From IMG/VR virus record IMGVR_UViG_3300030012_000288, positions 1 to 22,018 of that record: a stretch of DNA of 22,018 nt. The stretch is one strand, 5' to 3'. Below the pieces are notes generated by a model. That model was not told the DNA's origin and ran no database searches. It saw only the letters and a program-made list of their open reading frames with translations. This DNA is from a virus. A program made the position numbers and the translations under genes. Shown in pieces: positions 8,721-22,018 of this stretch. Numbering within the stretch: the first letter of the stretch is position 1; each line of letters begins with the position of its first letter.

Positions 8721-9314
8721 ATGTGTGTAGCAGCATTACCAGTATTAGGACCACAAGTAGGTGCTTTATTTGGTGCAAGCCTTGGTATAAATTTAGCTTC
8801 TAATTTAATTGGAAGATCATCAGCACAACAGCAAGCAGCACAAGTAGCTCAACAATCACAAATTGCAGCAAGGTCAGCAGAACAATCTTTTGCTAATCAA
8901 CAAGGAGCTTTAGCTGAACAATTAAAAGAAACTGAAGCTTCAAAAAATCAAGAAAGATTAGCTGCAACAATAAAAGGATTACAAGCTAGAGGAAGAATAC
9001 AAGCTTCAGAACGAGCAGGTTTAACAGCAAGTTTATTAGTTAGAGATGCAGAGAGACAAGCAGCAAATGAAAGAAATAGTATAGGACAAACTTTAGATTC
9101 ATTTAGAAGACAATACAGTAGAAATATACAAGGTTTAGAAACTCAGAGAAATAATAGATTAAATGAATTACAAGGTAATATAAATGAAGCGTATAACCAA
9201 GTACCATCTTTAGGATCTGTACTGCTTAATACAGCAGCATCAGGTGTTACAAACTACTTAGGATTATTACCTTCACCAAAATTAGACAATAACGTATTAA
9301 GGTTTTCTTCCTAA
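8721..9314 (+). CDS. Internal virion (ejection) protein, T7 gp14-like, 197 aa
   Basis: gp14 is part of the internal core and, on infection, is placed in the host outer membrane as the first element of the DNA translocation channel. Length equals that of T7 gp14 (196 aa). The N-terminus MCVAALPVLGPQVGALFGAS and following residues to about 31 form a Gly/Ala-rich hydrophobic segment. Residues about 34-155 are Ala/Gln/Arg/Glu-rich and probably coiled coil. A second hydrophobic patch (SVLLNTAASGVTNYLGLL) lies near the C-terminus. The amphipathic two-ended architecture fits a channel protein. The ATG abuts the previous stop, and its own stop overlaps the next ATG by one base. Confidence 0.88.
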   Translation: MCVAALPVLGPQVGALFGASLGINLASNLIGRSSAQQQAAQVAQQSQIAARSAEQSFANQQGALAEQLKETEASKNQERLAATIKGLQARGRIQASERAGLTASLLVRDAERQAANERNSIGQTLDSFRRQYSRNIQGLETQRNNRLNELQGNINEAYNQVPSLGSVLLNTAASGVTNYLGLLPSPKLDNNVLRFSS

Positions 9315-11998
9315 TGACACAAAGTTTTCGTGGTACATCATTTCAACCTTCTGCTAATCCTGTAGATACTTTTGAGCAAGGTGTTCGTGTTGCACCTAAA
9401 TCAGGTATTCAGTCTTTAGCTGAAACTTTAGCTGATGTAAATCCAACTATACAAAAATATTTAAGCAATCAAATTGATACTAAAATTGCACAAAATATAC
9501 AAGCAGGTCAGTTACAGGTTTTAGGTTCTGATCCAGAAGGTATAGATAAACTTAGAAAAGAATTAGAGAAAAATGAAGGTAAAAGATTTGCTAGAAACTT
9601 TATTGGTGGAAATGTTTATACACAATACGGAATTGAAAAACAACTAGCAATTAATTTAGGTAACGCTAGTGAAGCTAAAACAAAAAAGTTTTTTGATGAA
9701 TATGTAGTAGATGTTGAATTACCAAATGGACAAACTATTCAAAAACCATTATCTCAATTTTCTACTAATTCTGATGAATTTCAACAAGCAGTAAATGAGT
9801 TTCAAGAAACATCTTTAATGAATACAAGAGGAATAAGACCAGAAATAGTAAATCAATTCTTAATACCTAAACAAAATTTAGCTTTACAAAAAGTTTATAA
9901 GACACAAGAAAAAAATTTAGCAGATGCAAAAATAGAACAGGCAAATCTACTATTTAATAATTCAATATTAAATGCTTGGTTTAGTATTGATAATATTAAT
10001 GAGAATATAGAAAATGATTTAATACAAGATAATAAATCAAAGAATGGATTATCAACAGCAGAAGTTTTATCTTTAGATGAATTACAAAACAATATAAATT
10101 ATATGGTGAAAATCGGATTGAGTAGTAGTGTTTCTCCAAGCAAAATAATAGATGTTATGCAAACAAACATTTTGCAAATATTTGATTATTACGAAAATAA
10201 TAATCTTGATATGGAAGTAGCAGAAGAAGAAATACAAGAATATATTAATTGGATAGGTAATTTAAAAGTTACTAATAATCAACCTTTAAGAAATTTTTAT
10301 ATACAAGATGGAGAAGATAAAATTGAAACATTTATGAGTGATATAAATAAGAAAAAAGCAACTGCTATAAAAAATCAAAACGCTTTTCAGAAACAACAAG
10401 ATCAAGAAAATATTACAAACACTTTAAATAATTTAGATTTATCTCGTACTCAATTTAAAGATGGCAAAGAAGCATTAAATTACTTTAAAAGTATAGGTAA
10501 TACTTTAGATGCACTTGCTTTAGAGTACCCAGAACAAATTGAATTTTTATATAAGGAATATGACCTTAGAAATTTTAGTGTTGATGATTTCTTTTTTGAA
10601 TTAGAAACAGCGTATGACGATAAGATAGTAACTCAAAGTCAAGCTTTAACACAACTAACAGATGTCATGCAAGCTTTAGGACCAAACGCTTCTAATGCAG
10701 ATAGAAAAAAATATAAAGAATTAAAAAATTATTTAAATGAGACAGATGGCAAAAGTTTAGAACAAAGATTTCCAGCAATGAAAGAGTTAATAAAGTATGG
10801 TAAAAGAACTGTTGGCGAAGTAAAAGATGGTCTTCGTGTAATTACAGATGCTGATGATGTAGATAGAATGGAAGATCTAAATATAAAATTAAAAAGTTTA
10901 ACTAAAGAAAATGGAGGTATTGATGCTCAAATTGATATAAGAGGTCAAAGAACAACAGTTAGAAATTGGTATTTAGGTGAACTAAGAAAATTAAAAAATC
11001 CAAGAAAGTTTAATGATTATGAATTTTATGATCCAGCTTTAGATTTATCAGAACCTTTAGAATTTAAAGAAATACCTAGTGATGATGGAGATGGAGATGG
11101 TCAAGATGATGGTAAGACAGTAAATATACAAGAACAAAAAGTTTTAACTTACGATACAAATACAAAGTTATTTAGTGAAGTTAATACTAATGAATTACAA
11201 GTAGGACCAACTACTACAGTTGTATCTATTAATGGTTCAGTTACACCTGCTGGTGAATCGTTACGTCAAAATTTAAAAATAAAATCATTTGAAAATTTTA
11301 ATGTTGATTTTTATAATGCAACTTTTGAAGACAAGCAAACAGAGACAAGAAATGAAAAATTACTAAGTGATGATTTAGAAGCTAGTGTTTTTAGTGATGT
11401 TAGCGAAAAAGAATCACCTACTACAGTTGAAGTTGAACAGGGAGATACCTTAAGTAAGTTAGCAGATCAGTTTGGCTCGTCAGTACAAGCAATTATGGAA
11501 GCTAATAATCTTACTAATCCAGATATGATAAGAGTAGGACAAGAGCTAGTTATGCCAATAGTTGAAAGGATAAATATGAAAGAAGTAAAAAATAATCAGA
11601 TAAAAGCATTAGACGTTATTTTAAAAGATACAGACAAGACAAAGGTAATACCTCAACCTAAGATAGAAGAAATGTTATTAGCTGTAGGTTTTGAACCAAA
11701 CATTGCAAAAATTATGGCTGCTGTTTCAATGGCAGAATCAGCAGGTGATCCTATGATTGATACTGTCAAATCTGGTTTAGATCCTGAGAAGAAAAAAGAA
11801 TTTTCTATAGGTTTGTTACAACTAAATATGAAAGATGATAGAGACAGATTATTAAATGTATTTGATATTGAATCTGAAGAAGAGTTATATGACCCTATTA
11901 TTAATGTAATTGCAGCCAAGCGACTATATGATGAGCAAGGCCTTAATGCTTGGGGTGCATACAAAAATGGTTCCTATAAAAAGTTTCTAAAGAACTAA
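9314..11998 (+). CDS. Internal virion protein, gp15-position, with LysM and lytic transglycosylase-like domains, 894 aa
   Basis: The position corresponds to T7 gene 15 (747 aa). Residues 1-700 are a long, mainly helical, polar region without known motifs; the start SFRGTSFQPSANPVDTFEQG is a common opening of such proteins in marine podoviruses. Residues 705-748 form a LysM peptidoglycan-binding domain (VEQGDTLSKLADQFGSSVQA, then NNLTNPDMIRVGQELVMP). From about 780 to the end is a lysozyme-like transglycosylase domain: the probable catalytic Glu808 in AESAGDP, then SIGLLQLN (831-838), NVIAAKRLYDEQGL, and the terminal WGAYKNGSYKKFL. In T7 this activity is at the N-terminus of gp16, so the cell-wall-opening function has moved to this core protein. 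An Asp/Gly-rich linker (DDGDGDGQDDGK) lies near 594-605. Confidence 0.9.
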   Translation: MTQSFRGTSFQPSANPVDTFEQGVRVAPKSGIQSLAETLADVNPTIQKYLSNQIDTKIAQNIQAGQLQVLGSDPEGIDKLRKELEKNEGKRFARNFIGGNVYTQYGIEKQLAINLGNASEAKTKKFFDEYVVDVELPNGQTIQKPLSQFSTNSDEFQQAVNEFQETSLMNTRGIRPEIVNQFLIPKQNLALQKVYKTQEKNLADAKIEQANLLFNNSILNAWFSIDNINENIENDLIQDNKSKNGLSTAEVLSLDELQNNINYMVKIGLSSSVSPSKIIDVMQTNILQIFDYYENNNLDMEVAEEEIQEYINWIGNLKVTNNQPLRNFYIQDGEDKIETFMSDINKKKATAIKNQNAFQKQQDQENITNTLNNLDLSRTQFKDGKEALNYFKSIGNTLDALALEYPEQIEFLYKEYDLRNFSVDDFFFELETAYDDKIVTQSQALTQLTDVMQALGPNASNADRKKYKELKNYLNETDGKSLEQRFPAMKELIKYGKRTVGEVKDGLRVITDADDVDRMEDLNIKLKSLTKENGGIDAQIDIRGQRTTVRNWYLGELRKLKNPRKFNDYEFYDPALDLSEPLEFKEIPSDDGDGDGQDDGKTVNIQEQKVLTYDTNTKLFSEVNTNELQVGPTTTVVSINGSVTPAGESLRQNLKIKSFENFNVDFYNATFEDKQTETRNEKLLSDDLEASVFSDVSEKESPTTVEVEQGDTLSKLADQFGSSVQAIMEANNLTNPDMIRVGQELVMPIVERINMKEVKNNQIKALDVILKDTDKTKVIPQPKIEEMLLAVGFEPNIAKIMAAVSMAESAGDPMIDTVKSGLDPEKKKEFSIGLLQLNMKDDRDRLLNVFDIESEEELYDPIINVIAAKRLYDEQGLNAWGAYKNGSYKKFLKN

Positions 11999-19713: not shown

Positions 19714-20397
19714 ATGAGCCAGATCAAACTAAAACATAGCGGTGGTAATTCAGTAATCATAGCTGCACCAGATAGTAACCCTGCATCTGATCGCACTCTA
19801 AAATTACCTAGTAATGCAGATGGCAATATTTTAACAAGTACAAGTGGTAGTTCCCTTCAAGTGCTTGAACAGTTTTATCTACTAGCAGATGGTAGATCAG
19901 TTTCAACATCAAACGGAACAGTAACAACAACTAATGTAACGGCTGCACAAGCCTTAACAGATTCTTTTGTGGCAGCAACAGGGTCAGCTTTAACTTATCA
20001 ACCTCCAACTGGCACAACTGAACTTATATTTGAATATAAATTTCTGTTTGATGAATCTAATGCAAACGATAGATATTTATTTTCTTATTATCTAGATATA
20101 GACGGAACAGCAATACTTGAATCCAGAGGTGGAGCTTATACTAACGGTGATACATTTAATGATTACGTCCATTTTAAATATGGATTTAGAATTGGAAGCG
20201 GTAGTGATAGTGCTACTACAGGAGATCGAGCTTCATGGTCTTCTAATAAAACTATATCCCTAAAAATAGCAAGGTATAACAGTAGTTATGCCGTTGATCT
20301 ACATCGACTTCGTTATTATACACCTGCAGCTAGTAGTGCTGAGAACATAACAAGAAGACCGTATGTAGGTATTACAGCTATAGGAGTACCATCATGA
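19714..20397 (+). CDS. Tail fibre-associated or adhesin-like protein, 227 aa
   Basis: A GGAGG at 19701-19705, eight bases before the ATG and inside the end of the previous gene, gives good ribosome binding. The N-terminus MSQIKLKHSGGNSVIIAAPD and the following SDRTLKLPSNADGNIL are a module often seen in marine-phage fibre proteins (a related YTLTLPSNIVNGQFL occurs in the first fibre here). After residue 50 the sequence is beta-rich with many aromatic residues (ELIFEYKFLFDESNANDRYL and RYLFSYYLDIDGTAI) and could form a jelly-roll-like head domain. No catalytic motif is visible. Its end overlaps the next ATG by four bases (ATGA). The role is inferred from composition and position; the exact receptor or target is unknown. 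Confidence 0.7.
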   Translation: MSQIKLKHSGGNSVIIAAPDSNPASDRTLKLPSNADGNILTSTSGSSLQVLEQFYLLADGRSVSTSNGTVTTTNVTAAQALTDSFVAATGSALTYQPPTGTTELIFEYKFLFDESNANDRYLFSYYLDIDGTAILESRGGAYTNGDTFNDYVHFKYGFRIGSGSDSATTGDRASWSSNKTISLKIARYNSSYAVDLHRLRYYTPAASSAENITRRPYVGITAIGVPS

Positions 20398-21569
20398 GTG
20401 AAATTAAAGTAAATTCGATAAAAGGGGTAGGAGCTAGTTCTGCTGCTATTACCGTTAACAATACTGATGGAACGTGTACTGCCAATATTACTAATAGAAG
20501 TAATCACAATTTAATAATAAATGGTGGCCATAATGTTAGTCAGAGGGGAATAGCAGCAGTTACAGTTACAGGTTCTGCTACATTTAGATGTGTTGATAGG
20601 TGGAAAACAGATATTGATGGTAGCGGTGGAGGTGATTTTTCACATGCTCAATCAACAGATGTGCCAGACGGTCAAGGCTTTACTCATTCATCAAAAATAA
20701 CAACTGTTACTCAGGCATCACAACCAACTTCTGAAGGGAATAGGAATCAATTATATTATCAACTAGAAAAACAAGATGTTGCTCATTTAGCTTGGGGTAC
20801 ATCTTCTGCAAAGACTTGTACCTTATCTTTTTGGGTCAAAGGAAGTATTACTGGTGTTTACCCTTTGTGGTTTAATTATTATGCAAGTGGTGGCAATCAA
20901 TATTTTTGGACAAATTATACGATTAGTGCAGCTAATACATGGGAAAAGAAAACTATTACCTTAACTGGTCCAACTTCTGGTGGTATGGTCTCAGGCACAA
21001 CCGCAGTTGGTTTTAGAATAGAGTGGGGATTAGGGTATGGCAGTGACACTGAAACTGGTACGTTAAATGCTTGGACAACATCTTCAACAATTAGAACTGC
21101 TGCGGGAAGTGTGTATTTACCAGAAAACGCAGGAGCAACATGGTATCTAACGGGATGTCAGTTTGAAGTCGGGTCTGTTGCTACTGCTTTCCAGTTTAAA
21201 AGTTTTGCAGAGGAGCTTACTTTATGTCAGAGGTATTATTATTTACACGCCAAACAAACTGGTTCTGCTGGTGCTGATACTAAGCCAATCATGAGTGCTG
21301 CTCAATATACTAGTACACAAGCTTATGGAGTTATTTACTTACCTGTACGAATGAGAGCTACTCCAACTTTAGAGCAAGTAACTGGAACGGATTTCTTTCG
21401 TGGTTTTTCTGATGGTAATGCTGATAGTTTTGATTCATTTAGTGGTACTAGGCTAGAACCTCATATAGTTGAAATTCGTGCTGAAGGTATATCTAGAACA
21501 CAAACTGATGCTGCCTTTATAAGAACCAATGCAAATACAGCAGAATTAGCCTTTTCTGCGGAGTTATAA
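20394..21569 (+). CDS. Tail fibre or adhesin-like protein with NLIINGG module, 391 aa
   Basis: The N-terminus MSEIKVNSIKGVGASSAAIT is followed by NHNLIINGGHNVSQRG (about 38-53) and then DRW at about 68-70. This is a pattern widespread in marine-phage fibre proteins (N-L-I-I-N-G-x-M-x-V-x-Q-R-G then D-R-W/F). The middle (LSFWVKGSITGVYPLWFNYY, TWEKKTITLTGPTSG, VYLPENAGATWYLTGCQFEV) looks like a carbohydrate-binding jelly-roll. The segment ATAFQFKSFAEELTLCQRYY is the usual linker that follows this domain, and the last 100 residues are a variable beta domain. A sugar-binding adhesin is the best guess; evidence is pattern memory, not a search. It overlaps the previous gene by four bases. Confidence 0.8.
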   Translation: MSEIKVNSIKGVGASSAAITVNNTDGTCTANITNRSNHNLIINGGHNVSQRGIAAVTVTGSATFRCVDRWKTDIDGSGGGDFSHAQSTDVPDGQGFTHSSKITTVTQASQPTSEGNRNQLYYQLEKQDVAHLAWGTSSAKTCTLSFWVKGSITGVYPLWFNYYASGGNQYFWTNYTISAANTWEKKTITLTGPTSGGMVSGTTAVGFRIEWGLGYGSDTETGTLNAWTTSSTIRTAAGSVYLPENAGATWYLTGCQFEVGSVATAFQFKSFAEELTLCQRYYYLHAKQTGSAGADTKPIMSAAQYTSTQAYGVIYLPVRMRATPTLEQVTGTDFFRGFSDGNADSFDSFSGTRLEPHIVEIRAEGISRTQTDAAFIRTNANTAELAFSAEL

Positions 21570-21571
21570 TT

Positions 21572-21757
21572 ATGGCATATCCAACAGATCCTATGTATAA
21601 ATTTATTAAAGATTCTTTTACTAACACAACAGTAGCTGTAAGAAAATCTTGTGGTAAAGGTATCTTATTAGACATTCCTATTGATGAAGCAAACACAGAT
21701 TACCAAGAGTACCTTGAGTGGGTGGCAGAGGGAAACACAGCCGAAGCTGCTGATTAA
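21572..21757 (+). CDS. Small protein at the end of the fibre cassette, 61 aa
   Basis: The product begins MAYPTDPMYKFIKDSFTNTT and ends DYQEYLEWVAEGNTAEAAD. The ending resembles the Y-x-x-Y-L-x-W-x-A-E-G-N-T-P-x-x-A-D tail seen at the C-termini of some tail-fibre assembly proteins and of small ORFs next to fibre genes in marine phages. A role in fibre assembly is possible but not shown. Hydrophilic, no membrane segment. It is joined to the preceding adhesin gene by TAATTATG, and its last four bases overlap the convergent minus-strand ORF. Confidence 0.7.
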   Translation: MAYPTDPMYKFIKDSFTNTTVAVRKSCGKGILLDIPIDEANTDYQEYLEWVAEGNTAEAAD

Positions 21758-21882
21758 TTAGTCTTATGTTGCATCTGCCTTGTCATAAGGCTCATGGTGA
21801 CGTACAAAGGTGCTAGTACCATAATTCCTACAAAAGTTATTATGGTGACAGGTACTAAGGCTTTAGCAAAAGCATCTCTCAT
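21754..21882 (-). CDS. Minus-strand single-pass mini membrane protein, 42 aa
   Basis: On the minus strand, ATG (complement of 21880-21882) opens 42 codons: MRDAFAKALVPVTIITFVGI then MVLAPLYVTMSLMTRQMQHK and TN, ending TAA at 21754-21756. Residues about 9-33 are a clear membrane segment; the N-terminus is short and charged and the C-terminus is basic, so the likely topology is N-out or N-in with one span. It follows the fibre cassette, where T7 has its holin gene 17.5, so a holin-like or superinfection-related role is possible. The orientation is opposite to every other gene here. No Shine-Dalgarno is visible upstream. It overlaps the preceding plus-strand gene tail-to-tail by four bases. Support comes from the coherent membrane profile and the lack of a credible competing plus-strand gene in 21758-21885. 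Confidence 0.55.
   Translation of the reverse strand: MRDAFAKALVPVTIITFVGIMVLAPLYVTMSLMTRQMQHKTN
21815..21856 (+). repeat. Interrupted inverted repeat inside the minus-strand ORF
   Basis: AGTACC (21815-21820) pairs with GGTACT (21851-21856), and inside it ATAAT (21821-21825) pairs with ATTAT (21839-21843). ACCATAAT and ATTATGGT alone also make an 8-bp perfect stem (21818-21825 with 21839-21846). No T-run follows on either strand, so this is not an obvious terminator. Confidence 0.4.
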
Positions 21883-21885
21883 AAT

Positions 21886-22018
21886 ATGGACGAAATATAC
21901 TTACCAAACCTACCAGATACAAACTATATACTCAATCCTCCTAAAACAATTTTTTATCCCCCTGTAGCGGAGATACCTTATTTAGATCCAGTTCTTTTAC
22001 CAAGTCTGGAACAAGTTG
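21886..22018 (+). CDS. Proline-rich protein, N-terminal part (runs off the window)
   Basis: ATG 21886 opens a frame that stays open to the window end: MDEIYLPNLPDTNYILNPPK, then TIFYPPVAEIPYLDPVLLPS, then LEQV. The regular L-P, P-P and I-P spacing resembles an extended proline-rich N-terminal region found, in my memory, in marine podovirus proteins downstream of the tail fibres; their function is unknown to me. There is no Shine-Dalgarno sequence. The start lies three bases from the start codon of the minus-strand mini-protein, making a head-to-head pair. The remainder of the protein is outside the window. Confidence 0.65.
   Translation, partial: MDEIYLPNLPDTNYILNPPKTIFYPPVAEIPYLDPVLLPSLEQV

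Follow-up and report, generated by a model that had tools for sequence, protein, structure and literature searches.

A 42-codon gene, hereafter P, lies on the minus strand near the end of a viral contig of 22,018 nucleotides (IMG/VR record IMGVR_UViG_3300030012_000288; hereafter the window), and comparison with its relatives confirms it as a genuine, conserved and unannotated protein-coding gene. The surrounding genes place P in the mobile 'plasmid-stability' hypothetical cassette of cyanophages. We put at about one in two the probability that it encodes a hidden inner-membrane protein of this cassette, expressed as the last cistron of the exported-protein transcript and serving in the late opening or remodelling of the envelope at lysis. 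The open-licence literature yielded no previous account of P.

P runs from an ATG at position 21882 to a TAA at 21756-21754 (21754..21882, minus strand) and translates as MRDAFAKALVPVTIITFVGIMVLAPLYVTMSLMTRQMQHKTN*, that is, 42 codons and a stop. The earlier note, made from the letters of the window, had seen here a minus-strand frame with a transmembrane segment and a basic tail. The frame lies exactly at the stated coordinates, and its features hold: there is one span, with a mean Kyte-Doolittle hydropathy of 2.37 in the best 19-residue stretch, flanked by net charges of +1 on the N-terminal and +2 on the C-terminal side. P fills completely the gap between two plus-strand genes. On its stop side it converges with a small 61-aa gene behind the fibre (21572..21757, plus strand), whose TAA at 21755-21757 overlaps the stop codon of P, read as TTA at 21754-21756 on the plus strand; the last large fibre-like gene (391 aa, 20394..21569, plus strand) lies upstream of the locus. 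On its start side, within a head-to-head region at 21880..21888, 3 bp separate the start codon of P (CAT at 21880-21882, minus strand) from that of the plus-strand neighbour (ATG at 21886-21888). This neighbour is phrog_9426-like, begins MDEIYLPNLPDTNYILNPPKTIFYPP... and is represented by its 5' part (21886..22018, plus strand), cut by the contig end; it measures 161-169 aa in the related loci L008, L009 and L019, and its full-length relatives carry a C-terminal membrane segment. The 136 bp of the window upstream of the P start stop short of the operon presumed to carry P, whose layout is taken from relatives, L008 and L009 among them. Elsewhere in the window, positions 9314-11998 (plus strand) encode an 894-aa virion-type protein that has, by the look of its sequence, a LysM-like stretch and a lytic-transglycosylase-like C-terminus; it is possibly an ejected internal protein.

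A tblastn search of 50,697 phage records found P in AG-345-A17 (80% identity) and, with 67% identity each, in MED4-117, MED4-184 and P-HS2. According to the region tables of MED4-117 and P-HS2, it falls in an unannotated gap flanked by two opposite-strand genes, and the AG-345-A17 record is devoid of any annotation. A scan of IMG/VR with a four-sequence P alignment gave 475 pattern matches, including 389 P relatives confirmed by tblastn. The contigs that carry P thus number in the hundreds and come from marine phages, mostly of Prochlorococcus type. Among 71 distinct nucleotide sequences, the P frame contains no stop codon in any, while the five alternative frames are interrupted in 71, 37, 71, 39 and 71 of them. 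The pooled pN/pS ratio of this set is 0.25 (pN 0.14, pS 0.57), so that synonymous sites are near saturation while the protein is kept; the median pairwise dN/dS over usable pairs is 0.14, and mean entropy is highest at the third codon position (1.14, against 0.44 and 0.20 at the other two). As the 71 sequences had been recruited by peptide match, a second sample was drawn by the neighbouring gene only. Close pairs in this sample have a pooled dN/dS of about 0.40, and 117 of the 122 P matches are clean frames from ATG to stop; two of the other five reach a contig edge, and three are open frames whose start was missed by our script. One of the 117, at L195, is apparently frameshifted past residue 13 and is the sole likely broken copy. 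With dN/dS below 1 and start and stop kept, the minus-strand frame displays the conservation that the earlier note had singled out for checking.

Neither of the two observations that the same note regarded as fatal to the gene was made. Related DNA leaves the P frame intact, and positions 21758-21885 are not covered by any conserved gene on the plus strand: the 57-codon plus-strand frame at 21794-21967, which overlaps P as well as the gene that follows, is interrupted in 39 of the 71 relatives and is probably spurious. Three other accounts of the locus were rejected. A chance frame is ruled out by the hundreds of contigs, the absence of stops in the 71 sequences and the pN/pS and dN/dS values; a plus-strand gene on the same DNA, by the breaks in its frames among relatives; and a structured RNA finds no Rfam match at the P locus.

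The family has 152 distinct members, about 41-53 aa long, some of which share merely 19-30% identity with the window copy. Four alignment columns are nearly or fully invariant: K/R8 and P27 in all proteins, L28 in 148 and Y29 in 150. Every member has one strong hydrophobic span (mean hydropathy 2.36 over 100 proteins) between charged ends, with a mean net charge of +1 before and +1.7 after, a profile that suggests the topology of a one-span inner-membrane protein. One sub-family (L183, L186-L188, L198, L200, L241 and others) has a longer Ser/Thr/Pro-rich tail, ...SP.S/HPQSxK, in place of the TRQM...KTN tail. No model in Pfam, PHROGs, NCBIfam or PADLOC describes P, the best matches being scattered, marginal and mutually unrelated, and 41 members searched against Pfam, PHROGs and NCBIfam matched no holin or spanin family. 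Comparison with T7 gp17.5 by hhalign gave a probability of 0.1%, and no relatedness between P and phrog_568 was detectable. When divergent variants served as tblastn queries against isolate phages, two gave no match and a third returned the same six records.

The cassette was described in cyanomyoviruses as T4-GCs 218, 219, 234, 235 and 237 together with a 'plasmid stability' protein, and its genes as functionally clustered (Sullivan et al. 2010, PMC3037559). Our identification of it is based on PHROG matches, layout and the annotation of Syn33 (T4-GC 218, 414, 219, 234-237). Its members are two membrane proteins, phrog_568 ('plasmid stability') with one span and phrog_570/9426 with a C-terminal span, and two that are exported, phrog_650/564 and phrog_848/1755. 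These exported proteins have signal-peptide-like starts and are encoded, in relatives, on the strand of P, beyond the antisense neighbour or neighbours. The suggestion that P lies opposite all other genes therefore stands for the main genes of the window, which are all on the plus strand, but not for relatives with secreted-protein genes on the P strand. P itself is head-to-head with either phrog_568 or the phrog_9426-like gene. The gene next to its start runs antisense to it in 71 of 71 loci, and the gene next to its stop is convergent in 74 loci and co-directional in nine. In 66 of the 72 phrog_568 loci scored, a single CATG serves both start codons (offset +1), and across L176-L255 this overlap of opposite-strand genes at the phrog_568 start is unusually fixed. 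Two low-confidence AlphaFold models were obtained for cassette proteins (mean pLDDT 57 for phrog_848 and 61 for phrog_570); a structure search with the former retrieved cyanophage relatives only, Gp165 among them, without any match to a PDB fold. The phrog_848/1755 family (L084:682-1392, L008:1152-1685 and relatives, among them Gp165 of P-SSM7 and P-SSP10) has a signal peptide, four invariant cysteines, a predicted beta-rich region and a long helix.

The cassette does not occupy a constant place in the genome. At L037, L038, L048, L072 and L076, its P end immediately precedes the major capsid gene and is co-directional with it, so that the cassette is inverted or relocated with respect to the gene order of the window; at L018, L019 and L041 a lysine-rich gene separates the two. 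At L037, L048, L072 and L076 the capsid gene follows P on the same strand after 118-140 bp; P therefore moves with the cassette and not with the tail and fibre genes. An antisense role at the fibre gene is then unnecessary, and the proposal that P regulates late read-through in this way is disfavoured, given that the protein sequence is conserved and that P is far from the tail genes in some phages. Of the other roles that the note raised, lysis timing and superinfection exclusion are both possible.

There is no intergenic space on either side of P, and scans for promoters and terminators around it (in L008) gave matches at chance level; read-through from the exported-protein genes is therefore the simplest route to its expression. 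The earlier note had supposed that a minus-strand gene would need its own promoter. This need not be so, because P shares its strand with the secreted-protein genes of the cassette in relatives that extend past the contig end. Gene order thus suggests that P is most likely read across its antisense neighbours from the exported-protein genes, in the layout of a noncontiguous operon, the alternative being a transcription start inside the neighbouring gene, where synonymous variation dips weakly at the 5' end but not specifically in P-carrying loci. Noncontiguous operons are reported from phages (PMC7154746), and the gene order of relatives, taken as gene order only, is compatible with one transcript spanning the opposite-strand gene.

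An inner-membrane role at the end of infection appears likeliest because P has a single span, because its cassette partners are directed to the envelope, and because it occupies the interval where T7 carries its holin and spanins. The T7 order 17-[17.5, 18, 18.5, 18.7]-19, in which 17.5 is the holin and 18.5 and 18.7 are the spanins, corresponds to the interval from the fibre genes to the terminase in which P lies; this bears out the position, that of the T7 holin, first noticed for P. P also answers to the general description of a holin as a small protein with one or more spans, if not to any holin family or profile; no endolysin or spanin was identified in the cassette. We propose that P would be transcribed as the last cistron after the exported-protein genes, antisense through the interposed gene or genes. 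Its product, a kinked single span with a short basic N-terminus (K/R8), a PLY motif and a basic tail, would enter the inner membrane of the host at a late stage of infection, where it would most likely act with the other envelope proteins of the cassette to open or remodel the envelope at lysis.

The distribution of P was surveyed through its two head-to-head neighbours, phrog_568 (MFQKIAN...) and the window-type, phrog_9426-like gene (MDEIYLPN..., hereafter MDEIY), scanned without any criterion on P. Each scan covers the best 80 loci, and the query alignments came from P-carrying loci, wholly for phrog_568 and mainly (four of six rows) for MDEIY, so the presence rates hold for near relatives. 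A divergent P frame is carried by all 76 small-phage phrog_568 loci with enough upstream DNA and by 46 of 78 MDEIY loci, where its start is 3-5 bp (once 19) away from that of the neighbour. P occurs in none of the best 80 loci of a scan with the T4-like phrog_568, and was not found in T4-like cyanophage isolates with the cassette. It is also absent, by profile search, from P-SCSP1b and P-SCSP2, two isolates (PMC9860041) that both carry the cassette. Among isolates, P-SCSP2 has the portal protein nearest to that of the window (74.7%); its tail gene ends 2 bp ahead of the neighbour and P is missing. P is thus not found in all cassette carriers, and its absence from these T4-like phages and from P-SCSP1b and P-SCSP2 indicates that in some lineages neither the cassette nor the phage requires it. 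The hosts of the uncultured contigs are presumably of Prochlorococcus type, to judge from the MED4 isolates and a Prochlorococcus single-cell contig (L088). One 13-kb P-carrying contig (L089) was binned with an alphaproteobacterial genome (a Maricaulis MAG) and may be a mis-binned cyanophage.

On the MDEIY tree, the presence and absence of P require about six changes, at least three of them forced by starred branches. This patchiness beside the phrog_9426-like gene, together with the P-SCSP2 locus where the tail gene abuts the neighbour, favours a possible though unlikely alternative: that P is a moron-like accessory gene for superinfection exclusion or host takeover, inserted between two opposite-strand genes, whose small membrane protein would alter the host inner membrane and so block incoming phage DNA. 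Exclusion proteins are typically small and single-span, as P is; the fixed partnership with phrog_568 (76/76) and the conserved start overlap nonetheless point to a cassette component rather than a free moron, and the gap is too small for a promoter or terminator of its own. The near-obligate pairing with phrog_568 in small phages and the overlapping start codons could instead reflect a role of P in structure or assembly beside the membrane proteins phrog_568 and phrog_570, as part of a stoichiometric complex in the envelope or the virion, without any pore-forming or lytic activity by P itself; the S-TIM5 gene at the phrog_570 position is annotated 'virion structural protein and packaging'. 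We find this account doubtful, as T4-like phages retain phrog_568/570 without P and window-type phages pair P directly with the phrog_9426-like gene. It appears distinctly improbable that, in small cyanophages, P and the gene opposite it make up a two-protein lysis system that disrupts the envelope, in which the two membrane proteins would be translated in opposite directions from start codons within a single CATG, and the strand transcribed would pick the membrane protein and so act as a timing switch. Finally, a P transcript would necessarily be antisense to the 5' region of the neighbour, with start codons 1-7 bp apart, but that the conserved element is an antisense RNA regulating the neighbouring gene or genes, with an incidental frame, is very improbable and as a sole role largely refuted: the protein is kept at near-saturated synonymous sites (pS 0.57, pN 0.14), Rfam gives no match, and the neighbour shows no P-specific synonymous constraint, variation dipping slightly at the 5' end of phrog_568 and similarly in MDEIY loci with and without P.

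In small marine cyanophages, most functions in lysis and at the envelope have yet to be assigned, and P, as a putative late envelope protein, offers a concrete handle on a 'plasmid stability' cassette that is long known and unexplained. It occurs in hundreds of contigs at a fixed antisense position and with a near-obligate partner. It is unannotated in the isolates and the single-cell phage where we found it and lies outside the family libraries searched, which exposes a systematic blind spot of annotation for short frames placed head-to-head against another gene. P can be tested in MED4-117, MED4-184 and P-HS2, all of them isolates on Prochlorococcus MED4 that carry it.

Several known systems resemble P in part. 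The T7 gene 17.5 holin is likewise a small membrane protein encoded between the fibre and large terminase genes, but it has 67 aa and lies on the main strand, whereas P is antisense, has 42-53 aa and shares no sequence or profile similarity with it. Short unannotated membrane proteins are a known kind in catalogues of phage small proteins (review, PMC11323111), among which P differs in forming a family without a Pfam, PHROG or NCBIfam model and in its unusual, fixed antisense position. In noncontiguous operons and excludons (PMC7154746), too, an opposite-strand gene interrupts an operon and transcripts would overlap; the known cases rest on RNA data, and that of P on gene order. Another parallel is the cyanomyovirus cassette (PMC3037559), where phrog_568 and the gene at the phrog_570 position occupy one strand and phrog_650/564/848 converge from the other. 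Its T4-like members have a co-directional gene at the place of P, and to this plan the small cyanophages add an antisense P, head-to-head with phrog_568 or phrog_9426.
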